Shown: positions 13,641 to 34,741 of the stretch, one piece after another
How the letters are laid out: each line of letters begins with the position of its first letter
How positions within the stretch are numbered: position 1 is the first letter of the stretch
DNA from: Saccharopolyspora shandongensis
GTDB taxonomy: Bacteria; Actinomycetota; Actinomycetes; Mycobacteriales; Pseudonocardiaceae
Direction: 5' to 3'
NCBI RefSeq assembly: GCF_900106995.1
Contig: NZ_FNOK01000004.1
Coordinates: forward strand, 62,001-126,000
DNA: 64,000 bases
Notes under the pieces: generated by a model
Databases searched by the model: none
What the model was told of the DNA's origin: nothing
Seen by the model: only the letters and a program-made list of their open reading frames with translations
Translations under genes and position numbers: made by a program

Positions 13641-14513
13641 TCAACCCAGGTGGCGGCATTCGCTCGACGCGGGGCGGACACCGCCGGCACCCGCTTCGAC
13701 GGGGCGGTGCCCGCCGGTCACCGGGGACGCAGACGCGTCCCCTGCTCCTGACCCGTCCTCGCCCGCACCTGCCAGGACGGCGGTGATGTCGCCGGCCACC
13801 CGGTCGATGTTCTCGTCGATGTAGAAGTGGCCGCCGGGGTACGCAGCGAGGTCGAACCCACCCGTCGTGTGCTCCCGCCACACCAAGGCCTCGTCGGCGG
13901 TGGCCACCGGATCGCTGTCGCCGATCATCGCCGTTACCGGGCATCGAACGGACGCGCCCGCGGGGCAGGCGTAGGTTCCGATCGCCTGGTAGTCCGCACG
14001 AACCACCGGCAGGATCACGGACAGCAGGTCGCCGTCCTCCAAGACGCGGGGATCGGTGCCGCCGAGCCGCTTCATCTCCCCCAACAGCGTGGCATCGTCG
14101 AGCAGGTGCACATCCCCGCGCCCGCGAGTGGACGGCGCGGGACGCGCGGAGGCGAAGATGCGGACCGGCGCCGAACCGGCGGACCGCTCGAATCTGCGGG
14201 CCACCTCGAACGCCAGGATGGACCCCATGCTGTGCCCGAAGAACGCGTAGGGCTCCACGAGCTGCGGGAGCAGGGCCTCGAAGATGCCGTCCGCGAGCTC
14301 GGAAATCGAGGTGCAGAACGGTTCCCGGCGGCGCTCCTGACGTCCCGGGTACTGCACGGACAGGGTCTCCACCGCGGGAACGAGCCGCCGGGCCAGCCGG
14401 AGGAAGTAGCTCGCCGAGCCGCCGGCATGCGGGAAGCAGACGAGTCGCGCCCTGCTGTCCGAGAGCGGCTTGAACCTCCGGACCCACGGGTTGCTGGTCG
14501 GTGTTCGGGTCAT
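13641..14513 (-). CDS. Type II thioesterase (RifR/GrsT family)
   Basis: A 290-residue alpha/beta-hydrolase that normally clears stalled or wrong acyl groups from PKS/NRPS carrier proteins. Visible motifs are C-F-P-H-A-G-G-S-A near the start, Y-P-G-R-Q-E-R-R, the nucleophile elbow F-G-H-S-M-G-S (Ser95), a G-D-S-D-P-V acidic turn and the catalytic histidine in Y-P-G-G-H-F-Y-I. The protein runs about 35 low-complexity residues beyond the usual end. It is the last leftward gene of the cluster, 134 bp after the FcoT-like gene, with a strong hairpin between. Since no PKS here has a thioesterase domain, it could also take part in product release. Confidence 0.9.
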   Translation of the reverse strand: MTRTPTSNPWVRRFKPLSDSRARLVCFPHAGGSASYFLRLARRLVPAVETLSVQYPGRQERRREPFCTSISELADGIFEALLPQLVEPYAFFGHSMGSILAFEVARRFERSAGSAPVRIFASARPAPSTRGRGDVHLLDDATLLGEMKRLGGTDPRVLEDGDLLSVILPVVRADYQAIGTYACPAGASVRCPVTAMIGDSDPVATADEALVWREHTTGGFDLAAYPGGHFYIDENIDRVAGDITAVLAGAGEDGSGAGDASASPVTGGHRPVEAGAGGVRPASSECRHLG

Positions 14514-14588
14514 AGCGAACGCTCGCGGTTTTCTGTCATCACGGTTCTTCCGCCTCCGAGCTGTGGATCTGCACCAGAACGTCGTAGC

Positions 14589-14620
14589 GGGGGCACGGTT
14601 CGCAGACGAACCGCGCCCCC
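14589..14620 (-). terminator. Strong hairpin between the FcoT-like and type II thioesterase genes
   Basis: Arms GGGGGC-A-CGGTTCG (14589-14602) and CGAACCG-C-GCCCCC (14607-14620) give a 14-bp stem with one mismatch and loop CAGA. It would attenuate leftward transcription before the last gene. Confidence 0.6.
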
Positions 14621-14647
14621 TGCGCTCCTCCTCCGGCGACGTCGGCG

Positions 14648-15166
14648 TCAGTCCGGCAGGTTGAGCACTGTGATCGTCACTTCGCCGTTGCAGCGCCCGC
14701 CCTCGGCATCCCAGTACCGGTATGCCGTGTTGGCGACCAACATCGGCGGACTACCGCCAGGAGACCGGCGCAGGACCGACAGGAAATCGATCTCGCCCTC
14801 GAATCGGCGGGGATCGATCGGACTCCGGAACTTGCTGGCGAACCGGGCGATGAGGATGTCCGGCAGCTGGTGCTTCCAGTAGTCGCTCATCGTCCACCCC
14901 CGGAACTCCTCCAGGAGTCCCCATTGGACGGACGCGGCGATCGTGTAGTACAGCATCTGGTTGTAGCAGATGTTGACCTCGACCGCGTTGAGATGACCGG
15001 TGTCGTCGATGTAGCAGGACTCCGGGATGGCGAACTCGCATCGAGCGGAAGGCAGCGCCTCCCCTGATGTGACGGTGGCCGACTTCAGGTACTTGCAGTG
15101 CGGCTTGTACGGACGCAGGACCTGCCTCAGCAGCGTCGCGTCCGAGGCGTGGGAGGTCGTTGCCAT
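14648..15166 (-). CDS. FcoT/ScoD-type thioesterase-fold protein (glycine adduct formation in isonitrile pathway)
   Basis: A 172-residue single hotdog-fold protein resembling FcoT of M. tuberculosis (Rv0098) and ScoD of isonitrile lipopeptide clusters (PF10862). The core C-E-F-A-I-P-E-S-C-Y-I-D-D-T-G-H-L-N is followed by E-V-N-I-C-Y-N-Q-M-L-Y-Y, then W-G-L-L-E-E-F and A-R-F-A-S-K-F. In the sco pathway this protein acts on an alpha,beta-unsaturated acyl-ACP: glycine adds at the beta carbon and the N-carboxymethyl product is released. Its ATG follows the oxygenase stop by 5 bp, so the two are coupled. The family call is from motif recognition. The neighbour identity (ScoE-type oxygenase, ACP) strongly supports it. 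Confidence 0.82.
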   Translation of the reverse strand: MATTSHASDATLLRQVLRPYKPHCKYLKSATVTSGEALPSARCEFAIPESCYIDDTGHLNAVEVNICYNQMLYYTIAASVQWGLLEEFRGWTMSDYWKHQLPDILIARFASKFRSPIDPRRFEGEIDFLSVLRRSPGGSPPMLVANTAYRYWDAEGGRCNGEVTITVLNLPD

Positions 15167-15171
15167 GGGGG

Positions 15172-16056
15172 CTAATTCCCGCGCTCGTACAACGTGCCGG
15201 TGTCGTGCACGGTGACCCGGTGGGAGACCGTCGGCTCCGGAGTCGTGGTGTGGCGTGCCCGGTGGATCAGGCTGCGGTTGTCCCAGACGAGCAGATCGCC
15301 CTTCTCGAACTCCTGGAGGTGGATGTTCTCGTGCGCCAGGTCCTCGTCGAACTGACCGGTGGCCTCGAAAAGGCGCTTCAGCAGGTCGCCGTCGAGCTCG
15401 TTGCCTTCGGAGTCCTCGATGCCGACGGTGAAACCTTCGCTGATGTACAGCACCGTCTCACCCGTCATCGGGTGCGTGAAGGTCGTCGGCTGCCGGACCG
15501 CCGGGGTCTTCTGCTCGACCTCTTCGAGGAGCTCGGTGATCGGCCGGTACACGTCCTGCGGGCGGATCTTGAAGTACTTGCGGACGCTGTGCCAGCAGTG
15601 GGCGCCCTCGATCTCCGCCTTCAGCGAGTCGGGCAGCTTGCGGTACGCCTCGCCCATGTCGATGAAGTAGGTCCCCCGGTTCTTCTCCGGGATCACCTGC
15701 GGGTAGATGAGGGTGATGGCGAACGGGTCGGGCATGAACTGGTAGTCGGCGTGCCAGAACTTCCCCGTCTTGGGAACGCCGATCTGCTTGCCCGCCTCAG
15801 GCACGTTGGAGGACACGAAGATTTCCGGGTTCTCCGGGTGGTGGTACATCGGCTCGTAGTACGCCTCCGGGCGCCCGAGCCGCTTCCCGAGCTCGTGGAA
15901 CGCCTTCGGCGTGAGGTCCTGGCCCTTCAGGACCGCGATCTTGCTCTGGTAGACCGCCTGCTTCAGCGCGTCGATGTCCGCCTCGGACGCGGTCGTGTGG
16001 TCGAAGTCCTCGACCGTGACGCCCAGTTCCTTGCCGTGCTGCGGCTTGATGATCAC
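15172..16056 (-). CDS. ScoE/Rv0097-type Fe(II)/2-oxoglutarate oxygenase (isonitrile-forming)
   Basis: A 294-residue TauD/TfdA-family enzyme. The iron triad is W-H-A-D (His102, Asp104) and W-D-N-R-S-L-I-H (His265), with the 2-oxoglutarate arginine near the C-terminus. Residues I recall as substrate-binding in ScoE (Tyr97, Lys193, His299, Arg310) all have counterparts at a constant offset of 30: Tyr67, Lys163, His269, Arg280. Such conservation separates it from ordinary taurine dioxygenases. ScoE turns an N-carboxymethyl-beta-amino acid into a beta-isocyano acid by two oxidative turnovers with decarboxylation. GTG 16056 is chosen because it has AGGAG upstream and matches the ScoE N-terminus. 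An ATG at 16143 lies inside the ACP gene and is rejected. Confidence 0.92.
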
Positions 16057-16105
16057 TTGTCCCTGCTCCTCTTGATCTGCTCGAAACCCGGGGTCTTGCG
16101 GCTCG

Positions 16106-16363
16106 TCAGGAGGCCTTGTCCACTCCCGGAACGTGCTTGGCATCGATCAGCGACGCCGTGTCCGCGAGGGTGAGGTCCTCGGACAGCTCGTCGTCTTCCA
16201 CCGTGACGCCGAGATCGCGCTTCACCCGGAGCGAGAGCTCCACGAAGGTGAGCGAGTCGATGCCGAGGTCGGCGTAGCTGAGGTCCGGGGCGAGTTCGTC
16301 CACCGGTGTGTCGTGGATCTGCCCAAGGATGGCGACCAACTGCTCGTACGTGGTGCTGCTCAC
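16106..16363 (-). CDS. Discrete acyl carrier protein
   Basis: An 85-residue ACP with the phosphopantetheine serine in [11 protein letters not shown] and the usual acidic helix II. It corresponds in position and size to ScoB/Rv0100, the carrier on which the isonitrile precursor is built. GTG 16363 has GAGGAG upstream and overlaps the KAS III stop (GTGA), so it is coupled to that gene. It is 49 bp before the oxygenase start. It could also serve the KS-only protein in trans as extender or acceptor carrier. Confidence 0.9.
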
Positions 16364-17430
16364 GGTTCGCTCCTCACGGTTGCTGCCAGTGGTGGGTCGA
16401 TGTCGGGCCAGCGCAGGACGCAGGACCCCCAGGTCAGCCCGCCGCCGAACGCGGTGAGGAGCACCCGGTGCCCGGGCCGCAGCGCACCGCTGGCCGCCGC
16501 GTCGTTCAGCGCCAGCGGGATGGTGGCCGCACCGGTGTTGCCCACCTCGACGAGGTTCTGGGCGCAGCGGTCCGGGTCGATTCCGAGGTCGTCGGCCACG
16601 GTCCGCAGGATGCGCAGGTTGGCCTGGTGCGGCACCAGGAGGTCCACATCGTCCGGCTTCCACCCCGCGGCGGAGAGTGCGGCCCGCGACGAGTTCGCCA
16701 TGCGCGTGGCCGCGTGCCGGAAGACTTCCTTGCCCCGCATGGAGAAGTGCTGTTCGGCTCTGGTCGGCGGCCGGTCGGATGCGCGCTGGCGGGACCCGCC
16801 TGCCGCGATGATGATCAGCTCTTCCCCGGTGCCATCGCTGCCGAGTTCGAAGTGGCCCACCGCGCCGAGTTCGTCGGGGTCGCCGGCCCGGAGGACGAGG
16901 GCACCGGCGCCGTCGCCCAGGATGACGGCGTTCGTGCGATCGCTCTGGTCGACGACCGTCGAGTAGACGTCGGCCCCGATCAGCAGAACCCGCCGCGAGA
17001 CACCGGCCGCGATCAGCCCGGAGGCCACGGCCAAGCCGTAGACGACCCCGCTGCACACGGCCGAGACGTCGAAGGCCGCGGCCTCCTGGAGGCCGAGCCG
17101 CGACGCGACCAGGGGAGCGGTGCCCGGGCAGGGGCGATCCGGCGTGGCCGTGGCGACGATGACGGTGTCCGGCGCCTCCCCGCCGGCGGAGTGCAGCGCA
17201 CGCCTCCCGGCTTCCACCGCGAGGTCGGAGGTGGCCTGGCCCGGGTCGACCGCCCGTCGAGCCCGGATCCCGGTGCGAGTGGTGATCCACTCGTCGGTGA
17301 CGTCGAACCGCTGTGAGAGTTCTTCGTTCGTGATGACCCGCTGCGGCACCCAACCGCCGAGTCCGCACACGACCGCTGCCCTGCCGGATGGTTTTTCGGA
17401 CGAACCGGGGGATCTTCCGCTGATGCTCAT
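16360..17430 (-). CDS. Beta-ketoacyl-ACP synthase III (FabH-like)
   Basis: A 356-residue KAS III with the complete Cys-His-Asn triad: V-S-A-V-C-S-G-V (Cys126), V-P-H-Q-A-N-L-R-I (His268) and V-E-V-G-N-T-G-A-A (Asn298). KAS III enzymes condense an acyl-CoA with malonyl-ACP or, in secondary metabolism, transfer acyl groups or form esters. Here it heads the leftward operon with the ACP, so it may make or elongate the starter chain on that ACP. ATG 17430 has AGAGG upstream. Earlier in-frame starts have no RBS. A primary FabH duplicate is unlikely because no other fab gene is near. Confidence 0.9.
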   Translation of the reverse strand: MSISGRSPGSSEKPSGRAAVVCGLGGWVPQRVITNEELSQRFDVTDEWITTRTGIRARRAVDPGQATSDLAVEAGRRALHSAGGEAPDTVIVATATPDRPCPGTAPLVASRLGLQEAAAFDVSAVCSGVVYGLAVASGLIAAGVSRRVLLIGADVYSTVVDQSDRTNAVILGDGAGALVLRAGDPDELGAVGHFELGSDGTGEELIIIAAGGSRQRASDRPPTRAEQHFSMRGKEVFRHAATRMANSSRAALSAAGWKPDDVDLLVPHQANLRILRTVADDLGIDPDRCAQNLVEVGNTGAATIPLALNDAAASGALRPGHRVLLTAFGGGLTWGSCVLRWPDIDPPLAATVRSEP

Positions 17431-17493
17431 CGCGATACCTCTGCTGAACAGGTGGAGTGTTGTCATCCACGAGGCGGGGAGACGACTTCCACC

Positions 17494-17517
17494 ACAATGC
17501 ACGGGGACTCGCATTGT
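17494..17517 (-). promoter_or_regulatory. Dyad and TTGACA box in the divergent cluster promoter
   Basis: ACAATGC (17494-17500) and GCATTGT (17511-17517) form a 7-bp inverted repeat with a 10-bp spacer. On the reverse strand TTGACA (17520-17515) overlaps one arm and is followed 15 bp on by CATTGT. It could be the promoter or operator for the KAS III operon, although the spacing is short. Confidence 0.4.
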
Positions 17518-17534
17518 CAACGGAAACGGCGGTT

Positions 17535-17565
17535 TCTAAAGCGCCTCTAAAGCAGCACCAAGAAT
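17535..17565 (+). promoter_or_regulatory. Putative SARP heptad repeats and -10 box before the first PKS gene
   Basis: TCTAAAG occurs at 17535-17541 and 17546-17552, an exact direct repeat with an 11-bp period. AAGAAT (17560-17565) starts 8 bp after the second repeat. SARP activators typically bind heptads repeated every 11 or 22 bp that end about 8 bp before the -10 box, so the geometry fits. The leader to the PKS start would be about 150 nt. Confidence 0.5.
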
Positions 17566-17721
17566 CCGGATGCGGGTTTCTTGTCCGCCCGGTCGAACTG
17601 CAGTATTCCTAGGACCACTTCGACGGTTGATCAGCCGCCCCTCCGACGATTCCGCCAGGAGTCGCCGAAAGCGGGCCGTCTTGCCGTGCGGGCACCGCGC
17701 GGTTGTGGAGGCGCGATTTCC

Positions 17722-20700
17722 ATGGACCTTGCTTCAGCGCACGCCCAGCGGCCGATCCGCATGTCCGGCCGGGAACGGACCGGCTTCCTGCTCGGCCTCG
17801 TCCGTGGTCAGGTGGCCGAGATCCTGGGCTACGCCGATGTGGCGGACGTGGCGATCGATGCGACCTTCCTCGACCTCGGCCTGGACTCGCTCACCTCGGT
17901 CGACCTTCGTGATCGACTGGCCGCCGCCTGCGAGCTGGAATTGCCCGCCACGATGGTCTTCGACCACCCCACGCCCACGCAACTGGTCGAATTCTTGGAA
18001 ACCCGACTGGCCGGCCATTCGGAAACCGCCGCTGAACCTGCGCCGAATTTCCCGGTAAATCCGGCTTCGGACGAGCCGATTGCGATCGTGGGAATGGCCT
18101 GCCGATTCCCCGGCGGCATCAACACACCCGAAGACCTCTGGCACCTCGTCTCCACCGGCACCGAAGCACACACCCCCTTCCCCACCGACCGCGGCTGGAA
18201 CCTCGACACCCTCTACCACCCCGACCCCGACCACCCCGGAACCAGCTACGTCCGCGAAGGCGGCTTCCTCAACACCGCCCTCCACTTCGACGCCACCTTC
18301 TTCAACATCACCCCACGCGAAGCACTCGCCATGGACCCCCAACAACGCCTCCTCCTCGAAACCACCTGGGAAGCACTCGAACGAACCGGCATCGACCCCA
18401 CCACACTCCACAGCACCCCCACCGGCGTCTACACCGGCGCCGCGAGTTTCGACTTCCCGCTCATCGCCAAAGCCGTGCCAGACGGCGACATGTACTACAC
18501 GACCGGCACGCAGGGCAGCGTGGCGGCCGGCCGGGTGGCCTACGCACTCGGGCTGGAGGGCCCCGCGATGACGGTGGACACGGCGTGTTCGTCGTCGCTG
18601 GTGGCGCTGCACCTCGCCGCGCAAGCCCTCCGCCAGGGCGAATGCTCGATGGCCCTGGCCGGCGGCGCGACCGTGCTCTCCGGTCCGAGCGTTTTCCTGG
18701 GGTTCTGCCGTCAACGCGCGCTGTCACGAGACGGCCGTTGCCGCGCCTTCGCGGCGAGCGCCGACGGGTTCGGGCCCGCCGAGGGCGTGGGGGTGGTGGT
18801 GCTGGAGCGGCTCTCCGACGCCCAACGACACGGACACCGCATCCTCGCCGTCCTCCGCGGATCAGCCGTCAACCAAGACGGCGCCTCCAACGGACTCACC
18901 GCACCCAACGGACCCGCCCAGCAGCGAGTCATCCGCCAGGCACTCGCCAACGCACAACTCGACCCCGCCGACATCGACCTCATCGAAGCCCACGGAACCG
19001 GCACCCCCCTCGGCGACCCCATCGAAGCCCAAGCGCTCCTCGCCACCTACGGCCAGGACCGACAACACCCAGCGCTACTCGGATCGCTCAAATCCAACAT
19101 CGGCCACACCCAAGCCGCCGCAGGCATCGCCGCACTCATCAAGACGACCCTCGCCCTCCAACACGCCACCATCCCCCCCACCCTCCACATCGACCAGCCC
19201 ACGCCCCACGTCGACTGGACGACCGGAGGCCTCCAGCTCGCCACGGAAACCCAACCCTGGCCCCGCACCGGCCACCCCCGCCGCGCCGCCATCTCCTCCT
19301 TCGGCATGAGCGGCACCAACGCCCACGTCATCATCGAACAAGCACCACCGGAACAGGATCAGCCCGCTGTGCCTGAGGAACCGGCATCCCGTGCGACGGG
19401 CGAGGTGGTGCTCTGGCCGATCTCGGCGCGATCGGAGAAGGCGCTCCGCGCCCAAGCCGCGCGCCTCGCCGACCACCTCACCACCGCACCCGCGACACCC
19501 GACGCCGCCCTCGCCTCCGCCCTCGCACACCACCGCACCACCTTCACCCACCGCGCCGTCACCCTCGCCCGAACCCGCACCGAAGCAGTGGCCGGTTTGC
19601 AGGCCCTCGCCGCCGGAGAACGACCCCCGGGTGAAGGCGTACCGGAGGTCGTCACCGACACGGCCGTCGACAGCGACGGTGTGGTGCTGGTGTTCCCCGG
19701 CCAGGGCTCGCAATGGGTCGGCATGGGACGGGAACTGCTCGAAACCTCGCCCGTCTTCGCCGACTGGGTCACCGAATGCGAACGAGCCTTCGCCCCCTAC
19801 CTCGACTACGACCTCACCGCAGTGCTCCGCGGCGACGCCGATGCTCCCCCGCTTGAGCGCATCGACGTCGTCCAACCCGCACTGTTCGTCATGATGACCG
19901 GCATCGCCGCCCTCTGGCAGCATGCGGGCCTCACCCCCGCCGCCGTCATCGGGCACTCCCAAGGCGAAATCGCCGCCGCCTGCGCCATCGGAGCGCTCAC
20001 GCTCCCCGATGCGGCACGCATCATCGCCCTCCGCAGCCGGCTCCTGACCAGCCTGACCGGTGAGGGCGCGATGGCCGCCACCATGCTCGACCGCGACCGG
20101 CTGGAAGAGCGGTTCGCCGATTGCCACGGCGAACTCTCCACAGCCGCCATCAACTCGCCGACCTCCACGGTGGTCTCCGGCGATGCGTCGGCCGTGGCGG
20201 AGTTGCTGGAGCGGTTGCAGGCCGAAGGCGTGTGGGCTCGGCGGATCCCCGTTGACTACGCGTCGCATTCGGCTCATGTCGATGCGGTGCGGGGCAGGCT
20301 CCAGGAACTGATCTCGGACGTCCAGCCGCGATCGACGGAGGCGGTGTTCTGCTCGTCGGTGACCGGCGACGTCATCGACACCAAGGAACTCGACGCCGAC
20401 TACTGGTTCCACAACCTGCGACAGCCCGTCGAATTCTTCGCAGCGGTCGAAACGCTGCTCGAACGCGGACACAGGATCTTCATCGAAGCCAGCCCGCACC
20501 CCGTCCTCACCACCGCCCTGGAACAAACCCTCGACCACGCCCCACAGAGCGGAGCCGCACTACCCACCTTCCACCGCGACCACAGTGGACCGGACGCGTT
20601 CGCGACGGCAGTGGCGCGCGCGCACGTGGCGGGAGCGGAACTGGACTGGGCGGCTGTGCTCGGTGCGCGCCCCGTGCACGTCGATCTGCCGACATACGCG

Positions 20701-23403
20701 TTCCAGCGCGAGCGCTTCTGGCCGGACACACCACCCACGACGTCGAGTGCCCCGGAGGCTCTGGGGCTGGAGAGCACGGAGCACCCCCTGCTGGGTGCGG
20801 CCGTCACCTCAGCGGAATCCGGCGAAATACTGCTGACCGGACGCCTGTCCTTGACCACCCACCCCTGGCTCGCCGACCACGCCGTCTCCGGAGCGGTGCT
20901 CCTGCCCGGGACCGGCTTCGTCGAAATGGCATTGCGCGCCGGCGAAGAAGCCGACTGCAACGAACTCGCCGAACTCGTCCTGGAAACCCCGCTCGTGCTC
21001 CCCGAACGGGGCGGTGTCCACCTCCAGGTGCGGGTAGCCCCGGCCGACGAGACCGGGCACCACGCGGTGTCGATCCATTCCAGGCCCGAAGACGCCCCGA
21101 CGTGGAGCCGTCACGCCATCGGCCTGCTCACCACGACCACCACCACACCGGCCACCACCTTCAGCCCCTGGCCACCCCCTGACGCACAACCCGTCCCGAC
21201 CGAGAACTTCTACGCGAACGCCACCACCAACGGATACGACTACGGGCCCGCGTTCCAAGGACTCCGCGAAGCATGGCGACGGGACGACGAGCTCTTCGCC
21301 GAAGTCCACCTCCCCACCACCGACGGCTACCGGCTCCACCCCGCTCTCCTCGACGCAGCACTTCACCCGATGCTGCTGGACACCGGCCTCGATTCCACGG
21401 GCGACGGGCCCTCGCTGCCGTTCGCCTGGCGAGGCGTGTCACTTCACGCCACCGGAGCCACCGCGCTCCGGGTGCGGCTGGTGCGTCAGGGCCCGGGAGA
21501 GGTTTCGGTCGAGCTCGCCGACCACACCGGCCAACCCGTGGCGTCCGCGCAGTCCTTGGTAACACGGCCCGTTCCGAACGAACGGCTGCGCAACCTCCGC
21601 GGCACCCCTGGCCAGACGTTCCGCGTGGACTGGCGGGCGCTTCCGCTGCGCGAGGCCCCCGAAGCCGAGGACTGGGTGGGCCTGGGCACCGGCGATTTCT
21701 CGGCTCGCTGCGGGCGAACCGTGCGCAACCACCCGGACCTGGCATCGCTGCGCGCCGATCTCGATCGCGGGCGGCCCGCTCCAGGCGTGGTCGTGGTGCC
21801 GTGCTCCGGTCCGGCCGCCGTGACGGACGCGGCCGACTCGGCGATGGCCGTCACCGCGGACTTGCTGGCGGTCCTGCGCGAGTGGCTGGACGAGGACCGC
21901 CTAGGGGCTTCCCGCATGGTCGTGCTCACCAACGGGGCGATAACGGCGGCTGCGGATGAGGACGTCACGGACTTGGCGTGTGCCCCCGTCTGGGGTCTGG
22001 TGCGCTCGGCGCAGACCGAGCATCCCGGCCGGTTCCTGCTCGTCGACACCGACGACGCGCCGGCGTCTCGCCAGCTCCTGCCCGACGCGCTGGCGGCTGC
22101 TGTGGAAGCGGACGAGTACCAGCTGGCCGTGCGCCAAGGCGTCGCCCTGATGCCTCGGCTGACGCACCAGGGCGTGGACGGTAGCGACGACTCGCCTGCC
22201 CTGAACCCGCAGGGCACCGTCCTGATCACCGGCGGCACGGGCACGCTGGGCGGTTTGGTGGCACGGCACCTGATCCGGGCGCACGGCATCCGGCACCTGG
22301 TGCTGACCAGCCGCCGCGGCCCGCAAGCCCCTGGTGCGGCCGAACTCGAAGCCGACCTGTCCGGGCTTGGTGCCGGCGTGCGGATCGTCGCTTGCGATGC
22401 CGCCGACCGGGACGCATTGGCCCGGCTGCTCGACACCATCCCCGCCGAGCACCCGCTGACCGGCGTGGTGCACGCGGCGGGCGTCCTGGACGACGGCGTC
22501 GTTGGGTCGCTCACACCCCGGCAGCTCGAACACGTGATGGTCCCGAAGGTCCAAGCCGCCTGGAACCTCCACGAACTCACCGGTGACCTGGCGATGTTCA
22601 TGTCGTTCTCCTCGGCCGCAGCGACTCTCGGTACCGGCGGCCAGGCCAACTACGCGGCCGCCAACGCCTTCTTGGACGCCCTGGCGGTGCACCGCCGGGC
22701 CCAGGGCCTAGCCGCCGTCTCGGTGGCCTGGGGCTTGTGGGAGCGAGCCACCGAGATGACACAGCACCTCGATCAAGACAGCACGGCCGCGCTTTTGCGC
22801 CGGTACGGCCTGCGTTCGCTCGAAACCGAACAGGGCCTCGCCCTCTTCGACGGCGCCATGGCCACCAGAGAGGCGGTGCTGGTCGCGGCGAGGATGAGCA
22901 CCTCCGCGCTGCGATCCGCCGGCGCGGAGCCGATACCCGCGGTGCTGCGGGGCCTGGTGCGTGCGCCGCTGCGCCGCGCGGCGGCGAGCAGCTCAGCGGT
23001 CGACGCCTCCGGATTCGTCGAGCGCCTGCGGGCGTGCTCGGCCGAGGATCGGGACCTCAGGTTGCGCACCCTCGTGCAGACCGAGATCGCCGAGGTCCTG
23101 GGCGGTGTCAGCGCCGGTGAAGTCGGGCTCGATCGCAGCTTCAGCGAGCTCGGCTTCAGCTCGCTCACCGCGGTCGAGCTGCGCAATCGCCTTTCCCAGG
23201 CCACCGAGGTCCGGCTGCCGACGACGCTGGTCTTCGACTACCCGACCCCGCGTGCGCTGGCCGGCTACCTGCGGGAGCTGCTGGTTCCGGACAGCACCGC
23301 CGTTGCTCCAGGCGATGCACCGGCTCCGCAGGACGACTCGGACATCGCCGCCATGAGCGTGGATGAGCTGGTCCGGTTGGCCCTCGACGACCACCCCCTG
23401 TGA
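17722..23403 (+). CDS. Modular type I PKS: ACP-KS-AT-DH-KR-ACP
   Basis: A 1893-residue megasynthase. An N-terminal ACP (Ser56 in L-G-L-D-S-L-T-S) stands alone as a loading carrier with no AT. The KS begins near 118 (Cys289 in D-T-A-C-S-S-S). The AT (about 654-960) has Ser746 in G-H-S-Q-G and Y-A-S-H at 846-849, the methylmalonyl-CoA signature. The DH has His1053 and Asp1211, both intact. The KR has T-G-G-T-G-T-L-G near 1504, L-D-D (B-type) and Tyr1644. The second ACP has Ser1814 in G-F-S-S-L (Ser replaces the usual Asp of DSL). There is no ER or TE. ATG 17722 has GGAGG ten bases upstream. The product unit would be an alpha-methyl-enoyl thioester passed to the next gene through terminal docking sequences. 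Confidence 0.93.
18073..18441 (+). repeat. KS segment nearly identical to 23531-23899
   Basis: 369 bp encoding the first third of the KS match the second PKS gene with three differences by eye (ggc/gac, one c/a in cacacac, gaacg/gaaca). The sequence diverges sharply on both sides. Another near-identical stretch surrounds the active-site cysteine (about 18541-18660 and 24001-24120). Confidence 0.8.
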
Positions 23404-23428
23404 TCGCACTCGAAGAACGAGGTTCGTG

Positions 23429-26400: not shown

Positions 26401-28936
26401 TTGCGATCGGCTGGCCGAGCTCGTCCTCGAAACGCCCTTGGTGTTGTCCGAACAGGGCGGTGCCCACCTCCGGGTGCGGGTGGGCTCGGCTGATGACGCT
26501 GGGCACCACGAGGTGTCGGTCCACTCCCGGCCGGATGATTCTCGAACCTGGACCCGGCATGCCATCGGTCAACTCGCCACGACGACCGAAGCACCGCCCG
26601 GCGACCTCACCACCTGGCCGCCTCCCAACGCGCAACCCCTCTCCACCGACGAGTTCTACGCCCGCACCACCGCCAACGGGTACGACTACGGGCCGACCTT
26701 CCAGGGACTGGACAAAGCATGGCGGCGAGACCACGAACTCTTCGCCGAAGTGCACCTGCCCACCGCCACCGACGACTTCCAGCTCCACCCCGCACTCCTC
26801 GACACCGCACTCCACCCGCTCGGGCTGGACAGCTCCGAGGTTCGGCTGCCGTTCGCGTGGCGAGGCGTGGCACTGCACTCCACGGGCGTGTCGGCGCTGC
26901 GGGTGCGGCTGACCTCAACGGGGCCTGGCACGGTGTCGCTGACGATGGCCGACACCAAAGGTCGACCGGTGGCGTCGGTGGACGAACTGACGTTGCGCGA
27001 GGTGACCTCGGAGCAGCTCGCCGCCCTGCGGGGCTCTCCTCAGGATTCGCTGTTCCGCACGCAGTGGCAGCAGGTGCGCCCGGCTGATGCAACCGGATCG
27101 TCGGCCGTGCTCGGCGGTGGTCTCGCGGTGCCGGGCGCCGAGCACCACGAGAGCCTGTCCGCCCTGCTGGCCTCGATCGACGCGGGACGACCGGTGCCGG
27201 ACGTGCTGTTCGTGCCGCACCTCCCCGAGGCGGTGCCCGGCGACACCGCCGACCGGGCTCGCGCCACGACCTGCCGCGTCCTGGCGCTGCTCCAGTCCTG
27301 GCTGGCCGATGAACGGCTGGCGGAGTGCCAACTCGTGCTGGTCACCAGCGGCGCCGTGGCCGCAGGCCCCGACGAGGGCGTGGCGGACCTGGTCCACGCC
27401 GCGGCCTGGGGACTCGTCCGCTCCGCCCAGAGCGAGCACGCGGACCGGTTCGTCCTCCTCGACACCGATGCGACCGATGCGTCCCACGCGGTGCTCGGTG
27501 CGGCAGTGGCGACCGGCGAACCGCAGCTCGCCGTCCGCGCGGGCGCAGTCCACGTTCCCCGCCTGGTCCGCGCCGCCGCGCCGACCGCACCGCCCACGCC
27601 CTCGGTCGATCCGGACGGCACCGTGCTCGTCACCGGTGGGACGGGGGTGATCGCCGGCAGGCTCGCTCGACACCTGGTGGCCGACGGTGGGGTGCGGCAC
27701 CTCCTGCTGGCCAGCCGCCAGGGACCGAAGGCCGCGGGAGCCGCCGAGCTCGAACGCGAACTCCGCGAGATGGGCGCGGCGACGGTCACCATCACCGCGT
27801 GCGACGTCGGTGACCGCGACGCGGTGGCCCGGCTGCTGGGCACCATCCCCGCGCAGCACCCGCTGACCGGCGTGGTGCACGCGGCGGGTGTGCTGGACGA
27901 CGGGGTGATCAGCTCGCTCGGCCCCGACGGCGTTGTGCGGGTCTTCCGGCCGAAGGCCGACGCCGCACTGCACCTCCACGAGCTGACCAAGCAGCTGCCG
28001 CTGCGGCAGTTCGTGCTGTTCTCCTCCGCAGCCGGAACGCTCGGCGCTCCCGGACAGGGGAACTACGCGGCCGCGAACACGCTGCTGGAAGCTCTGGCTC
28101 GACACCGCCACGCCGCCGGATTGCCCGCCACTGCGGTGGCGTGGGGGTACTGGGACCAGGCCAGCGGCATGACGCAGCACCTGGACGAAGACCGGCTGAC
28201 GGCCCAGTTGCGCCGCACCGCGATGCAACCCATCGGTGTCGACGAGGGGCTCGCCCTCTTCGACGCCGCCGTGACCACCGACGAGCCCGTGCTCATGGCG
28301 GCGCGGCTGAACACCGCGGCGCTGCGCTCCCCGGGACACCACGTCCCATCCGTCCTCAGTGGACTGATCCGGTCGTCCGCGAAGCGGGACACCGACCGCC
28401 CCGGGCACGCCGCTCCCGAGGAGCTGCGGGCGCGTCTGGAGCCGCTGCCGGAACCGGCGCGCTCGGTGGCTCTGCTGGATCTGGTGCGCGCCACGATCGC
28501 CGGGGTGCTGGGAATCGTCTCGCAGGACGGCGTGCCGGCCGAGCGGCAGCTGTCGGATCTCGGGTTCGACTCGCTCACCGCGGTGCAACTCCGCAACGCG
28601 CTCGCCGCGGAAACCGGGTTGCGGCTTCCGGCGACGCTCGTCTTCGACCAGCCGACGCCGACCGCGTTGGCCGGCGACCTCGGTGCCCGGCTCTTCGGCG
28701 AAGGCACGGGTCCGGGATCCGCCTCGGGTCCGTCGGTGTCCGACGCGCTCGCACACCTCGACCGGTTGGAGGAGTCGCTGGCCGCGGTCCCGCCGGATGA
28801 AAGCCGGGAGGTCATCGCGCGCCTCCAGGCGCTCCTGGCCACTCGCCTGGACAGCGCACCGGACGACATCGACCTGGAACTGGCCACCGACGAGCAGCTC
28901 TTCGGCCTGATCGACGAAGAACTCGGATCGGACTGA
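23429..28936 (+). CDS. Modular type I PKS: KS-AT-DH-KR-ACP
   Basis: A 1835-residue single module. Residues 1-34 form a charged coiled-coil docking helix ([14 protein letters not shown]). KS Cys207. The AT has Ser659 in G-H-S-Q-G with W-A-S-H at 759-762, a variant of Y-A-S-H that I read as methylmalonyl-type with less certainty. The DH has His966 and Asp1125. The KR has T-G-G-T-G-V-I-A near 1403 (unusual for T-G-G-T-G-T-L-G), L-D-D and Tyr1546. ACP Ser1715. The last ~80 residues form a C-terminal docking domain ending E-E-L-G-S-D. There is no ER or TE. The ATG at 23429 lies 25 bp after the previous stop. It should add a second alpha-methyl-enoyl unit and hand the chain to the KS-only protein. 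Confidence 0.93.
23531..23899 (+). repeat. KS segment nearly identical to 18073-18441
   Basis: Partner of the 369-bp segment in the first PKS gene (three differences seen). The abrupt loss of identity at both edges suggests gene conversion rather than simple shared ancestry. Confidence 0.8.
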
Positions 28937-28992
28937 CCCGCCGACCACCGCCCGGCCACCGGCCGGACCCGGATTTTCCCGAAAGGTGCCGC

Positions 28993-30807
28993 ATGGCAGA
29001 GGACGACGAGCTCCGCGACTACCTCAAACGCGTCACGCTCGAGCTCCGCCGCGCCCGGCGTCGGCTGCAGGAGGCGGACGATCGGCAGCACGAGCCGATC
29101 GCGATCGTCGGCATGGCCTGCCGCTACCCCGGCGGGATCGGTTCGCCGGAGGACCTGTGGCGGCTGGTCGCGAACGGCGAGGAGGCGATCGGGGGGCTGC
29201 CGACCGATCGCGGCTGGGATGCTGCGGCGCCCACCGGATTTCCCCGCGCGGGCGGGTTCCTGCACGACGCCGCCGAATTCGACCCGGCACCGTTCCGGCT
29301 CTCCGCGGAGGAGGCGCGCGTCGTCGATCCGCAGCAGCGGCTGTTGCTCGAAACCAGTTGGGAAGCGCTGGAAAGGGCCGGGATCGACCCGACCTCGTTG
29401 CGCGGCAGCTCCACCGGCGTGTTCGCCGGTGTCATGTACAACGACTACGGCGGACACCTCGCCGCCAAGGGGTTCGACAGCGACCTGCTGGTCGGCAGCG
29501 CGCCCAGCGTTGCGTCCGGCCGGATCGCGTACTCCCTCGGACTGCAGGGCCCGGCGATGACCGTGGACACCGCGTGCTCCTCCGGGCTGGTGGCCCTGCA
29601 CACGGCGCTCCACTCGCTGCGCCACCGGGAGTGCTCGCTCGCGCTGGTGGGCGGCGTGGCGGTGATGGCCACCCCGACGGCCATCCTCGCCTTCGGCCGG
29701 CAGGGAGTGCTGGCGCCGGACGGCCGGTGCAAGTCCTTCGCCGCGGCAGCGGACGGCTGGGGCCTGTCCGAGGGAGTGGGTGTCCTGGCGCTGGAGCGGC
29801 TGTCCGACGCCCGCCGTGCGGGCCGCCCGGTGCTCGCCGTGGTGCGCGGTTCCGCGATCGTGCAGGACGGTGCGTCGCACGGGCTCACTGCGCCCAACGG
29901 CCAGGCCCACCGGCGGATGATCCGGCAGGCACTCGCCGCCGCGCGGCTGTCGGCCTCGGACGTCGACGCCGTGGAGGCGCACGGCACGGGCACGCCGCTG
30001 GGCGACTCGATCGAGGCCCAGGCACTGCTGGACACGTACGGTGCCGACCGGACGAGGCCGCTTTGGCTGGGGTCGATCAAGTCGAACCTCGGCCACACCC
30101 AGGCGGCTGGTGGCGTGGCCGGCGTCATCAAGATGGTGATGGCGCAACGGCACGGCGTGCTGCCCAGGACGTTGCACAGCCGGGAACCGTCCCCGCTCGT
30201 GGATTGGGCGGGCGACGCGGTCCGGCTGCTGGTGGACGCCGCACCCTGGCCGGAATCGGACCACCCGCGCCGCGCAGCGATCTCGTCGTTCGGCATCAGC
30301 GGAACCAACGTCCACGTCATCGTCGAGCAAATGCCGGACGACCCCGAGAACCGACCGGATCCGGGGCAGTCCCCCGAGGGCGCGCCGTGGTTGCTGTCTG
30401 CGGCATCGCCCGAGGCGCTGCGGGCTCAGGCGGCCAGGCTCTCCGCTCACCTGGCCGCGCGCCCGGAGCCGACCGACCTGGACGTCGGCCATTCGCTGGC
30501 GAGGAGCCGGGCCGGGTTGCCGCACCGCGCCGCAGTGATCGGCAACGGCCGGGAGGAGCGCAGGCGGGCGTTGGCCGCTCTCGCGGAGGGCCGAACGGCG
30601 ACCGAGCTGATCCACGGCGGTGACGCGCCTTCGGAACCGGGCTCCGCGGAGGTCGACCGGCTCGTCGCCGCCCACTGCCGCGGCGGGTCCGTGGACTTCG
30701 ACGCCGCCTTCCCGGGGGGCCGGCTGGTCGACCTGCCCACGTATCCCTTCCAGCACCGGCACTACTGGCTGCAGTCCGACGATCCCGAAGGGTTTGGTGC
30801 ACCATGA
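28993..30807 (+). CDS. Stand-alone modular-type ketosynthase (AT and all later domains missing)
   Basis: A 604-residue protein. It has an N-terminal docking coiled coil ([16 protein letters not shown]), then a full KS with Cys195 (D-T-A-C-S-S-G) and the two histidines in V-E-A-H-G-T-G-T and N-L-G-H-T-Q-A-A-G. The KS-to-AT linker is present, but the AT is gone. The frame passes directly to the post-AT linker [14 protein letters not shown] and stops. No ACP or TE is present. It probably accepts the chain from the preceding ACP by docking and condenses, transfers or releases it with an external partner such as the discrete ACP. ATG 28993 has GAAAGG upstream. Its stop overlaps the ligase start. 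Confidence 0.9.
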
Positions 30808-32390
30808 CCGAAAAGACCTCGCTTCCGACGCAACGGCGGACGCTCGACGCGAGGCTCGCTTTCCACGCCGCGAGCCGGCCGGAGCAGACGGCCATCCTGC
30901 ACGACGGCAACCGGACGAGCTACGCGCAGCTGCACCGGGAGAGCAGCAGGGGGGCCTGCGCACTGCGGGCGGACGGCCTCGGCAAGGGCGCCCGAGTCGC
31001 CTACCTGGGGAAGGAATCGGAGAGCTACTACGAACTCCTCTTCGCCTGCGCCAAGAGCGGGGTGGTACTCGTCCCCATCAACTGGCGGCTTGCGGCCGAC
31101 GAGGCCGAGTACATCCTGCGCGACTCCAGCGCCGAACTCCTCTTCGTGGAGCAGGAATTCCTCCCGGTGGCGCAGCAACTCCTCCCAGAGCTGCCCGAAC
31201 TGCGAAAGCTGGTGCTGCTCGACTGCGCGGATCCGGCGGGCCCCACCGTCGCGGAGTGGAAGGAATCCGGTGCGGCGGCGGAGGAACCGAGCGGCTCGCA
31301 CACCGACGACCCGATCGCCCAGATGTACACCAGCGGCACGATGGGCTATCCGAAAGGGGTGGTCCTGGCCCACCGCACCTTCTTCGCGGTGCGCGGCCTG
31401 CTGGACGAACACGGCCTCGACTGGATCGACTTCAAGCCCGGGGACAGGAGCCTGATCGGCATTTCCGGCTCCCACATCGGCGGGATCTGGTGGGCGACGC
31501 AGGGTTTCAACGCGGGCATCACGAACGTGGTCATCCGGTCCTTCACCAGCGGGGAAGCCCTGGACCTGTTCCGGTCGAGCGGCATCACCACGGCCTGCAT
31601 GGTCCCGGCCATGCTGCTGATGCTGCTCGCGGAACCCGGTGCGTCGAGCGAGGATTTCGCCACCCTGCGCAAGACCGTCTACGGCGGATCGCCGATTTCG
31701 GAGTCGTTGCTCCAGCGCTGCATCGACACCTTGAAGTGCGATCTCGCGCAGATCTACGGCCTGACCGAAACCGGGAACACCGCCGTGTGCCTGCCGCCGC
31801 AGGACCACGTGCCGGGAAGCCCGCGGCTGCGCGCGGCCGGGCGGCCGTACCCGGGCGTCGAACTGAGGATCATCGACGAGGGCGGAAACCCGGTCGGGCC
31901 GGGCGTGATCGGCGAGGTGTGCATCAAGACGCCCGCTCACATGCTCGAGTACTGGCGGCTGCCCGACGCGACGGCGGGCACGCTGATCGACGGCTGGGTC
32001 CACACCGGCGACGCGGGCTACCTGGACGAAGACGGCTACCTGTTCATCCAGGACCGCATCAAGGAGATGATCATCCGCTCCGGCGAGAACATCTACCCCG
32101 CCGAAGTGGAGAACGCGATCAGCGCACACCCGGCGGTCCTGGACGTGGCGGTGGTCGGGGTCCCGGACGAACGCTGGGGCGAGGCCGTTCAGGCGTTCAT
32201 CGCCCGACGCCCGGGGGCTTCGGTCGCCCCCCACGAGATCCGGGCGTTCCTCCGCGGACGGATCGCCGACTTCAAGATCCCCACGAAATACGAGTTCATC
32301 GACGCTGTGCCGCGCAACCCGAGCGGCAAGATCCTGCGCCGCGTCCTGCGGGAACGGTTCTGGGGGGAACGCGAAAGAGCCGTGAACTGA
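30804..32390 (+). CDS. ANL acyl-AMP/acyl-ACP ligase (ScoC/FadD10-like role)
   Basis: A 528-residue adenylate-forming enzyme. The P-loop-like motif is [11 protein letters not shown] (Met where Thr is usual). Others are [27 protein letters not shown] and the catalytic lysine in N-P-S-G-K-I-L-R-R. It should activate a carboxylic acid as acyl-AMP and load it on CoA or, as ScoC and FadD10 do, on an ACP. In this cluster the likely acceptors are the discrete ACP or the N-terminal ACP of the first PKS. ATG 30804 overlaps the KS-only stop (ATGA). It could act on the precursor fatty acid or reload a free isocyano acid. Confidence 0.9.
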
Positions 32391-32457
32391 TCCCCCAGAC
32401 CCGCCAACACCCAGGCGGCGAATGCCGCCGCGGGCCGAAGATGAGAGGAAAGCGACC

Positions 32458-33711
32458 ATGTCCGATGTGACCGCCGAACCGACCGGCGAGAAGGTCAAGC
32501 CCGCCTTCAAGCCCTACGACGGCAAAGCCGACCACCCGTGGGAAGAACTCGCCCACGACCGCGCGCGCTGCCCGGTCGTCCACCACCCCGAGCTGAACTC
32601 GATCCAGGTCACCACCTACGAGGGGATGAAGACGGTAACGCGCAACAACGCGGCGTTCTCCAGCACGCACAGCGCATCGTGGCCGATGGAGAAGCCGGTG
32701 CCGGTGGAAAACCAGGTGTTCGCCTTCGCCGACCCGCCGCGCCACACCCGCCAGCGCCGGCTGGTCGTCAAGGCCCTGTCGGCGTCGCGAATCGAGAGCA
32801 TGCGGCCGTTCGCGGAACGCACGGCGAACGACCTCATCGACGCGGTCGTCGCCAAGGGCGACGAGTTCGACCTGATGGCCGACTTCGCCGAGCCGATGAG
32901 CGAGGCGCACATCTGCGAACTGCTCGGCATCCCGGACGACGTCCGGCAGCAATTCCTGCACATGTCGATGCTGACGGACACCACCGCGCAAGCCAACAGC
33001 GCGGGAACCGCGAGCCCCGAGGTGGAGAACTGGCGGCAGTTCCTCAAGGAGGCGGTGCAGTCCCGCCGTGCGGCGGGGCCGGGCAGCGACGACCTGCTCA
33101 CCACATTGTGCTTCGCCGAGGAGGACGGCTACCAGTTCGACGAGAACGAGATCGGTCTCGTCCTCATGGGACTCATCGCGGGAGGCGGCTCGACCGGTCC
33201 CGCCATCGGCAACCTCGCCTACGCGCTGGAGCAGCACCCGGAGCAGAAGGCCAAGTACCTCGCCGACATCGACGGCCTGACAGACGCGGCGGTGGACGAG
33301 GGGTTCCGCTACGACGGACCGATCCTGGGCCTGTACCGCATGACGCTGCAGGAGGGGACCATCCAGGACGGGTTCCGCGCCAGCCCGGGAGACCGGATCT
33401 GGTTCTCCCTCGCGGCCGCCAACCACGACCCCGAAGCCTTCGACCGGCCGGACGAGTTCATCCTCGACCGCAACTGGTCGGAGCTGCCGCCCGTCATGGC
33501 CTTCGGCCACGGTCCGCACCACTGCATCGGCATGAACCTCGGTCGGCTACAGGTCGAGGTGGGGATCTCCACGCTGTACAAGCGACTCCCGAACCTGCGG
33601 CTGCGACCGGGCTTTCAGCCCCGCCAGATCCCGGGACCGCTGTTCCGGGCGTGGACCTCGTTGGAGATGGTCCACGACGGACCGGCCCGGCCGCGGACCG
33701 ACGTCTCGTGA
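32458..33711 (+). CDS. Cytochrome P450
   Basis: A 417-residue soluble bacterial CYP. The heme loop is F-G-H-G-P-H-H-C-I-G (Cys356), and the K-helix E-x-x-R is E-G-F-R. The I-helix reads L-I-A-G-G-G-S-T-G-P, so the normal acid-alcohol pair (A-G-x-D/E-T-T) is replaced by Gly-Ser. This may alter oxygen activation. The ATG at 32458 is used because upstream residues are charged and non-homologous to CYP starts. The stop overlaps the ferredoxin start (GTGA), so the electron partner is supplied by the operon. It probably oxidises the polyketide chain. Epoxidation or hydroxylation cannot be told apart. Confidence 0.92.
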   Translation: MSDVTAEPTGEKVKPAFKPYDGKADHPWEELAHDRARCPVVHHPELNSIQVTTYEGMKTVTRNNAAFSSTHSASWPMEKPVPVENQVFAFADPPRHTRQRRLVVKALSASRIESMRPFAERTANDLIDAVVAKGDEFDLMADFAEPMSEAHICELLGIPDDVRQQFLHMSMLTDTTAQANSAGTASPEVENWRQFLKEAVQSRRAAGPGSDDLLTTLCFAEEDGYQFDENEIGLVLMGLIAGGGSTGPAIGNLAYALEQHPEQKAKYLADIDGLTDAAVDEGFRYDGPILGLYRMTLQEGTIQDGFRASPGDRIWFSLAAANHDPEAFDRPDEFILDRNWSELPPVMAFGHGPHHCIGMNLGRLQVEVGISTLYKRLPNLRLRPGFQPRQIPGPLFRAWTSLEMVHDGPARPRTDVS

Positions 33712-33947
33712 GCGGCCCGGAGCTGACCGGCGGCGGCCGACGCGTCGCGGTCGACCATTCGCTGTGCGGCGGAACCGGTCACTGCCAGGACATCGTTCCG
33801 GAGGTCTTCCGGCTCGACAAGGTCGAGCGGCGGGCGAAGTTGCGCGACGACGCCGACCTGGCCGAAGCCGCCTCGGACCGGCTCGCCCGGGCTGAGGCGT
33901 CCTGCCCGTGGTTCGCCATCACCTTCGAGCGGGAGGGCGAGCGGTGA
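33708..33947 (+). CDS. [3Fe-4S] ferredoxin (P450 redox partner)
   Basis: A 79-residue ferredoxin with three cluster cysteines: L-C-G-G-T-G-H-C-Q (Cys19, Cys25) and S-C-P-W (Cys67). The position normally taken by the central cysteine of a 4Fe cluster is not Cys, as in SoyB/FdxD-type partners of CYP105. GTG 33708 overlaps the P450 stop, and its own stop overlaps the methyltransferase start (GTGA), so three genes are chained. It passes electrons from a ferredoxin reductase elsewhere in the genome to the P450. Confidence 0.9.
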   Translation: MSGPELTGGGRRVAVDHSLCGGTGHCQDIVPEVFRLDKVERRAKLRDDADLAEAASDRLARAEASCPWFAITFEREGER

Positions 33948-34741
33948 CCTACATCCTCGACCCGGCGTGGCACGCCGAACACGCCAGATTGGAGAACCTC
34001 GCCGGCCTCTACGATCCCGGCACCGCGGCGATCTGCGACCAGCTGGGCGTCACTGCCGGCTGGCGTTGCGCGGACCTCGGAGCCGGGACCGGCACCGTCG
34101 TGAAGATCCTCGCCGACCGCGTCGGTCCAGAAGGCGAGGTGCTGGCCATCGACGCCGACACCCGCTTCCTGGAACCGCTGGCGGGCGGACCGATCTCCGT
34201 CCTCGCGGCGGACGTCACCTCGGAACCACTGCCGGCGGACCGCTTCGATCTCGCGCACGCCCGGCTGCTGCTCGAACACCTCCCAGCGGCCGAGGCCGTG
34301 ATCGAGTCGATGGCGAGGGCCGTGCGGCCGGGCGGATGGGTCTTCGTGGAAGACCTCGACTGGACCACGGCGTTGGCCGTGGATCCGCCGTCCGAGGCCC
34401 ACGAACGGGTCATCCGGGCGTGCCACGAGCTGTTCACCGGCACGCCGTACGACCCGTCCTGCGGGCGGAAGCTACCTCGCCGCCTGCGCCGCGCCGGGTT
34501 GACCGACATCAGCGCGCGAACCACCGCGCTGTACCTGTCGTCCGATCCCGCCCGAGGGCTGCCGGGATGGGAGATGCTCGTCGACCAGCTCGCTCCCCGG
34601 CTGCTCGGGCTCGGGCTGGTGGGCCAAGCGGATCTCGATGCCTTCCACCGGCTGTGGCACGACGGCGACTCGATCTGCTTCGGGCCGCTGATGGTCAGCG
34701 CCTGGGGCCGCCGCCCGCCCGACGACAGGCGCGGGGAGTGA
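33944..34741 (+). CDS. SAM-dependent methyltransferase (class I)
   Basis: A 265-residue Rossmann-fold methyltransferase. The SAM-binding glycine loop is C-A-D-L-G-A-G-T-G-T-V, followed by an acidic motif II (L-A-I-D-A-D) and R-P-G-G-W-V-F-V-E-D. It is most like small-molecule O/C-methyltransferases of the UbiE/methyltransf_25 group. GTG 33944 overlaps the ferredoxin stop. As the last gene of the rightward operon, before two strong hairpins, it is probably a tailoring step, for example methylation of a carboxylate or hydroxyl. The acceptor is not deducible. Confidence 0.88.
   Translation: MTYILDPAWHAEHARLENLAGLYDPGTAAICDQLGVTAGWRCADLGAGTGTVVKILADRVGPEGEVLAIDADTRFLEPLAGGPISVLAADVTSEPLPADRFDLAHARLLLEHLPAAEAVIESMARAVRPGGWVFVEDLDWTTALAVDPPSEAHERVIRACHELFTGTPYDPSCGRKLPRRLRRAGLTDISARTTALYLSSDPARGLPGWEMLVDQLAPRLLGLGLVGQADLDAFHRLWHDGDSICFGPLMVSAWGRRPPDDRRGE

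Follow-up and report, generated by a model that had tools for sequence, protein, structure and literature searches.

A candidate isonitrile-primed polyketide synthase cluster in Saccharopolyspora shandongensis

Results

Organization of the gene cluster

The window analyzed here, a 64,000-nt stretch of the Saccharopolyspora shandongensis genome (10.15 Mb in 134 contigs; NZ_FNOK01000004.1, positions 62,001 to 126,000), carries a divergent cluster of 13 genes in which a cassette of the isonitrile-acid type lies next to a modular type I polyketide synthase (PKS). The cluster occupies window positions 12778–34741, with the gene for a SARP-type regulator (Streptomyces antibiotic regulatory protein) at one end (12778) and a methyltransferase gene at the other (34741). 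The minus-strand half encodes a ketoacyl carrier protein synthase III (KAS III), an acyl carrier protein (ACP), ScoE, FcoT/ScoD, and a type II thioesterase. The plus-strand half encodes PKS1, PKS2, a lone ketosynthase (KS) devoid of an acyltransferase (AT), an ANL ligase, a cytochrome P450, a ferredoxin, and a methyltransferase; the SARP gene is also on this strand. Pfam and the open frames locate the genes named in an earlier note on this DNA, among them two modules composed of KS, AT, dehydratase (DH), ketoreductase (KR), and ACP, the lone KS, and the ligase, at or beside the places assigned to them. The SARP gene belongs to the cluster, as the note had proposed, and is left out by the start at 13641 that the note had chosen.

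12778–13587, plus: SARP-type regulator (Trans_reg_C and BTAD; Pfam); 57–60% identity in the S. rosea, S. catenulae, S. benahoarensis, and S. pinistramenti loci
13641–14513, minus: type II thioesterase (PF00975, motif GHSMG); 55–67% matches in the same four relatives
14648–15166, minus: FcoT/ScoD-type (2E)-enoyl-ACP glycyltransferase/thioesterase (NCBIfam NF049938; PDB 5WSY, 256 bits; Pfam FcoT)
15172–16143, minus: ScoE-type Fe(II)/2-oxoglutarate isonitrile-forming oxygenase/decarboxylase (TauD; NF049937); start codon uncertain, the open frame overlapping the ACP end
16106–16363, minus: discrete ACP of 85 aa in the ScoB position (PF00550); relatives adjoin ScoE in NRPS-type (nonribosomal peptide synthetase) and same-type loci
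16360–17520, minus: KAS III, FabH-like, Cys/His/Asn motifs present (sequence search, motifs); start uncertain
17581–23403, plus: PKS1, ACP-KS-AT-DH-KR-ACP (Pfam, motifs); in-frame ATG at 17722 as alternative start
17782–18000 (approximate), plus: N-terminal (loading) ACP of PKS1, Ser in LGLDSL, motif at residue 99 (Pfam finds two PP-binding stretches)
23363–28936, plus: PKS2, docking-KS-AT-DH-KR-ACP (Pfam including PF08990, motifs); C-terminal docking region read by eye
28993–30807, plus: AT-less terminal KS with docking domain, KS (Cys/His/His), KS-AT linker, and post-AT linker (Pfam, motifs, Lsd14 alignment)
30804–32390, plus: ANL acyl-adenylating ligase (Pfam; PDB neighbors including FadD10; trees); 4 bp overlap with the KS gene
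32422–33711, plus: cytochrome P450 (Pfam; motif FGHGPHHCIG)
33708–33947, plus: small ferredoxin of 79 aa (CGGTGHC...CP), named by eye from its motif; tblastn relatives at 41–61%, no NCBIfam match
33944–34741, plus: class I S-adenosylmethionine-dependent methyltransferase (Pfam, scanned from 33908); 66–68% in three relatives

The ACP and ferredoxin genes are open frames that the GC-based gene caller did not call. The ferredoxin gene overlaps the P450 gene and the methyltransferase gene by 4 bp each.

The cassette has the hallmarks of isonitrile-acid synthesis

Both diagnostic enzymes exceed the curated NCBIfam equivalog cut-offs (ScoE, NF049937, 510.2 bits versus 400; ScoD/FcoT, NF049938, 302.6 bits versus 250). 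The window ScoE is identical to crystallized ScoE 6DCH at 230 of 303 positions (76%, 527 bits); PDB chains named fatty-acid oxygenase/decarboxylase score 254–262 bits. All 11 ScoE residues checked are retained, comprising H132, D134, and H295, which we take to be the Fe triad, and Y96, Y97, Y101, R157, K193, R195, H299, and R310. The latter eight are named for the substrate, (R)-3-[(carboxymethyl)amino]butanoate (CABA), and 2-oxoglutarate in PMC7949033. We also compared the window proteins with columns in which at least 98% of the other rows share one residue (102 rows for ScoE, 96 for FcoT, 69 for ANL, and 57 for KAS III after removal of two distant ones, L054 and L057). ScoE (0/69) and FcoT (0/20) show no departure, ANL shows one (1/118), and KAS III is the least clean (6/113). 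The functions resembling ScoB to ScoE that the note had listed are thus present by Pfam and, for ScoE and ScoD, by the equivalogs, and the oxygenase falls inside, not outside, the ScoE clade (tree, NF049937).

KAS III, which the note had grouped with the PKS-side parts, travels instead with the cassette: it is present in 45 of the 55 NRPS-type ScoE loci surveyed below and therefore belongs with the isonitrile genes. In the window, KAS III and the discrete ACP share one operon with ScoE and ScoD. A self-resistance copy of FabH was considered and dropped on the same count, a biosynthetic role being likelier. The genome has a single ScoE match at E ≤ 1e-70. A second isonitrile cluster was likewise dropped as a candidate, as the TauD gene on contig C41 has no ScoE match; that gene lies near a 1479-aa open reading frame with merely a weak ligase-like match.

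Among PDB entries, 5WSY, presumably SAV606, matches the window FcoT best. According to PMC11284099, thioesterases of the CmiS1/SAV606 type add glycine to an enoyl thioester and then hydrolyze it, and serve isonitrile pathways as well as the cremimycin pathway, where such an enzyme feeds a PKS, as is proposed for the window. FcoT might accordingly make an N-carboxymethyl-3-amino acid from which a β-amino acid starter of the cremimycin kind primes the PKS. However, cremimycin needs the flavin adenine dinucleotide (FAD) enzyme CmiS2 (same paper) where the window has ScoE, a full one by NF049937, and no FAD oxidase family appeared in the Pfam scans of the cluster; a starter of this kind is very improbable.

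A modular PKS stands where an NRPS would be expected

The note had described the NRPS as absent and replaced by a modular PKS. Consistent with this, Pfam scans of 12 of the 13 cluster proteins (all except the ferredoxin) gave no condensation domain of an NRPS. The PKS motifs are present (KS Cys/His/His, AT GHSQG, DH HxxxGxxxxP, KR LDD), with a second AT motif that reads YASH in PKS1 and WASH in PKS2; the common AT and KR motif rules point to methylmalonyl-type AT and B-type KR. In PDB sequence searches both ATs score highest, ~315–331 bits, with ATs of modular PKSs, chiefly DEBS, Lsd14, and tylactone synthase. AT1 lies nearest to DEBS (328 bits), Lsd14, and tylactone synthase, and AT2 to 6iyr (331 bits; named just a type I modular PKS, a name that gives no extender) and DEBS (326 bits); the best listed malonyl-CoA transacylases score 96 bits and 89 bits, respectively. 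Pfam detected no enoylreductase (ER) domain in the window PKSs.

PKS2 and the AT-less KS carry N-terminal docking domains. The AT-less KS aligns with Lsd14 up to 577 and again, weakly (8.5 bits), from 895, which indicates that the AT is missing and the post-AT linker remains. Each of five further PKSs scanned has two carrier-protein stretches, one of them N-terminal in four of the five as judged from its place or motif (the place in L074 is not given). The KS regions of PKS1 (18175–18382) and PKS2 (23633–23840) have 208 bp in common without a difference, likely a trace of recent gene conversion or else an assembly artefact.

A proposed pathway to an isonitrile polyketide

We propose that a ScoE/ScoD isonitrile-acid cassette is joined here to a two-module PKS, and that the PKS is probably primed by a short isonitrile acid. 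KAS III, with housekeeping reductase and dehydratase, would make crotonyl on the discrete ACP; ScoD would place glycine on the β-carbon and release CABA, the ScoE substrate according to PMC7949033; and ScoE would oxidize CABA with two 2-oxoglutarate to 3-isocyanobutanoate. The ANL ligase would then adenylate this acid and load the N-terminal ACP of PKS1. In the ScoE assay described in PMC7949033, the reaction was coupled with lysine, ATP, ScoA, ScoB, and ScoC, so that the loading of such an acid by a ligase has a precedent. Two methylmalonyl extensions, each followed by ketoreduction and dehydration, would yield 7-isocyano-2,4-dimethylocta-2,4-dienoyl on PKS2. From there the chain would move to the AT-less KS, which would either carry out a further condensation, using a unit held by a free ACP, or pass the chain on so that the type II thioesterase releases it; P450/ferredoxin and methyltransferase would finish the product. 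The hypothetical free acids after each module have computed [M+H]+ values of 154.0863 and 194.1176. The predicted methyl-branched isonitrile compound is apparently undescribed; a literature search, mostly at title and abstract level and with few subscription journals, found no modular methylmalonyl PKS with an isonitrile starter.

The P450/ferredoxin pair, the methyltransferase, and the otherwise unexplained terminal KS that follow the PKS leave room for a different end point, in which the PKS is primed as proposed and the isonitrile is later lost or transformed, by hydration to a formamide or by use in ring formation, so that the product is no isonitrile. Yet the ScoE-type pathways described in PMC13273461 and PMC7949033 end in isonitriles, and no hydratase was recognized among the Pfam-scanned cluster genes. 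We consider such a loss unlikely.

Several observations weigh against priming and extension as we propose them. The NADPH motif of the PKS2 KR is GGTGVIAG where relatives have GGTG(V/A)LG, a change that may weaken the second reduction. The WASH motif of the PKS2 AT departs from YASH, and the motif reads RASH in S. rosea and RAGH in PKS2 of S. catenulae, where YASH is wholly missing, so that the extender choice is unsure. The S. rosea locus has no match to the P450 or ferredoxin, and the S. pinistramenti genome has no match to the lone KS (E ≤ 1e-120) or ANL (E ≤ 1e-100); hence, the gene set is not kept everywhere. The chain length suggested for the substrate follows from closeness to ScoE; which carrier the ligase loads, which extenders are used, what product results, and what part the lone KS plays are likewise predicted from sequence.

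The arrangement recurs in other genomes

A scan of genome contigs found 104 ScoE relatives, of which 80 were kept. By tblastn, their loci contain an NRPS in 55 cases, a modular PKS in 14 (the co-occurrence that the note had asked about), neither in 11, and both in none, which argues that the PKS takes the place of the NRPS. The 11 loci with neither include some in which the contig ends near ScoE (e.g. L018, L036, and L070) and the mycobacterial L075 and L078, which fall below the NRPS threshold of 250 bits. ScoE occurs with FcoT in Leucobacter and Agrococcus (L062, L064, L065, L069, and L070), with neither NRPS nor PKS detected within the fetched stretches, some of them short; these genera possibly use the isonitrile acid differently. 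Streptomyces griseoaurantiacus JCM 4763 has an NRPS-type (L008) and a PKS-type (L080) ScoE cluster in one strain.

ScoE proteins of the window, S. rosea, S. catenulae, S. benahoarensis, and S. pinistramenti form one clade (support 100/96, 83 rows). Every cluster gene is matched in S. catenulae (lone KS 66%, ANL 71%, P450 67%, ferredoxin 61%, methyltransferase 66%). In S. benahoarensis the genes are split over two contigs, with partial matches for P450, ferredoxin, and methyltransferase. S. pinistramenti has SARP, type II thioesterase, FcoT, ScoE, and methyltransferase on a contig that ends beside the methyltransferase gene; it was dropped as a full cluster, given the missing lone KS and ANL matches at the thresholds used. 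The order PKS, lone KS, ANL recurs in S. catenulae, S. benahoarensis, S. rosea, L054, L074, L080, L122, and G143. In the family of the host, 19 of 390 genomes have ScoE at E ≤ 1e-70, S. rosea and the window's genome being the only members of the genus among those listed. In an even draw of the class, two of 394 genomes reach E ≤ 1e-130, namely that of the window and G598. For the lone KS protein, a search that scored the 7989 candidates sharing most words gave, among the best 120 of 1471 matches, S. shandongensis (75%) and one further source (90%). Entries P0004 and P0011 were considered as KS-ACP fusions of the lone KS and dropped; both are called partial and their domain order differs.

The cluster is bordered by genes for an L,D-transpeptidase and a MOSC protein on the left (Pfam), and on the right by an open reading frame at 34941–35546 (read by eye as RdgB-like) and genes for RNase PH, a metallo-β-lactamase-fold protein, and a rhomboid protein. 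When six of the flank proteins were compared with five loci fetched from S. rosea, S. catenulae, and S. benahoarensis, none had a match there, suggesting that the cluster is kept as a unit in different surroundings.

These data bear on the question of whether the PKS is merely a neighbor and the isonitrile acid is used alone or with another partner. Transcription of the two halves diverges, the cassette half is close in sequence to cassettes of the lipopeptide type, and the discrete ACP could carry the isonitrile acid as ScoB does. On the other hand, the only ligase of the cluster sits in the PKS operon, its gene overlapping that of the lone KS; neither an NRPS in the cluster nor a locus with both PKS and NRPS was found; and the arrangement recurs in three other genomes with other flanks, which is more than chance proximity. 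Mere adjacency therefore appears improbable. The note's word "fused" holds for the gene neighborhood; no protein fusion is present.

Gene trees suggest a chimeric origin

To describe the trees we use W for the window type, B for L054, L073, L074, L080, L121, and L122, A for amycomicin-like loci, and N for the NRPS type. For the one-clade tests, groups were defined once the first trees had been seen, one NRPS row in three was taken, and only rows that belong to a group were included; their p-values (approximately unbiased test, p-AU) serve as guides. In the ScoE tree, W groups with Streptomyces N (99/94), and W+B as one clade is rejected (p-AU 3e-8). As B alone is no ScoE clade either (p-AU 0.0034), the latter test partly tests B; this is mended by separate tests, which reject W+L054 (p-AU 0.0017) and W+L073/L074/L080/L122 (3.4e-5). 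FcoT also places W with Streptomyces N, not strongly (92/88), and its tests are all marginal (p-AU 0.017 for W+B, 0.0375 for W+L054, and 0.041 for W+L073/L074/L080/L122).

The PKS half behaves differently. ANL unites W with B (L054, L074, L080, and L122) at 100/98 (42 rows, every second NRPS row) and at 99/96 in a second tree (31 rows); the alternative of W with Streptomyces N is only just rejected (p 0.042). The note's view of the ligase as a cassette function stands as to function, whereas in the trees the enzyme goes with lineage B and not with the Streptomyces lipopeptide type. In the KS tree (38 rows, L054 giving its lone KS only and L073 and L121 no row), W and B rows fall together (100/99) and their eight lone KSs form one subclade (99/98); seven of nine amycomicin-like lone KSs form another clade.

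The cluster thus looks like a natural chimera of a lipopeptide-type cassette (for FcoT less surely) and a B-type PKS-KS-ANL block. This is the simplest reading of the trees; in the opposite direction, B may have changed its cassette. The single module of S. rosea (L094, 7757–13420) has a KS with 77% identity to window PKS1 and 70% to PKS2 and a KR with 73% to PKS2 and 61% to PKS1, its AT (61/63) and DH (56/57) being undeciding. It looks like a deletion hybrid of modules 1 and 2, a natural case of chain shortening. A fuller scenario is tentative, and we hold it somewhat less likely to be right than wrong: a lipopeptide-type KAS III-ACP-ScoE-ScoD cassette would have been grafted on a methylmalonyl-using modular PKS, yielding methyl-branched conjugated ω-isonitrile polyketides. 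Their length would change in evolution as modules are deleted (the window has two modules, S. rosea one), and an AT-less KS would close them, off-loading being a new role for it.

Discussion

Isonitrile lipopeptide (INLP) clusters, such as scoA-E of Streptomyces coeruleorubidus and those of the Rv0096-0101 type, share the order KAS III-ACP-ScoE-FcoT with the window, with close sequences in Streptomyces NRPS-type loci. The window likewise holds the ScoB to ScoE functions together, with a ligase of a different branch. In those clusters, however, an NRPS joins the isonitrile acid to an amino acid; Pfam found none in the window, which instead has modular PKS, lone KS, P450/ferredoxin, methyltransferase, SARP, and type II thioesterase.

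In the route reported for the antibiotic amycomicin, a PKS elongates an isonitrile acyl chain after a ligase has loaded it (work ascribed to Zheng, Clardy, and Liu in 2024), and amycomicin and aerocyanidin offer a precedent for an isonitrile acid that primes a PKS. In PMC13273461, amycomicin is an epoxy-isonitrile that inhibits FabH; its cluster is shared by a group of S. virginiae genomes and is assigned to a type I PKS network, and AmcQ, AmcB, and three P450s are named for the isonitrile, epoxy, and keto motifs. The note's remark that an isonitrile from a type I PKS would be unusual has to be tempered by this case. As stand-ins for the amycomicin/aerocyanidin reference cluster we used the S. 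virginiae locus L055 and genome G143, the latter of which we take from its gene content to carry an amycomicin-like cluster. Window, G143, and L055 have ScoE, FcoT, type I PKS, and lone KS in common, and ANL is seen in G143 as in the window but not within the L055 stretch. In contrast to the window, the G143 PKS is KS-AT-DH-ER-KR-ACP without N-terminal ACP, three places in G143 match the P450, and the AT of G143 and L055 reads HAFH/GHSIG (malonyl-type by the common rule) where the window has GHSQG with YASH/WASH. The window thus differs in its two modules without ER, loading ACP, one P450, and other cassette origin, and amycomicin, the nearest known case, likely uses a different kind of assembly line.

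Lineage B (here L054, L074, L080, and L122) is like the window in its KS-AT-DH-KR-ACP, lone KS, ANL, P450, and often ferredoxin. It has one PKS module (with two carrier stretches in L074, L080, and L122), a ScoE that groups apart from that of the window, a KAS III that is at most distant (37% in L054), and no match to the discrete ACP or methyltransferase of the window. The lineage occurs in Streptomyces and in the window's own family and has a GHSQG AT; L121 is seen in part. To our knowledge, no product has been reported for it.

The cluster would extend the isonitrile-acid-primed PKS known from amycomicin; its type of AT, the absence of ER, the loading ACP, the number of modules, and the source of the cassette set it apart from the amycomicin-like cluster. 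It predicts a testable class of compounds, small methyl-branched dienyl isonitriles with the masses given above; isonitriles bind copper and haem iron. An isonitrile-tolerant pair of loading ACP and KS would be a useful part for engineered polyketides. The discordant gene trees suggest that the cassette that makes the starter has been exchanged between NRPS and PKS clusters.

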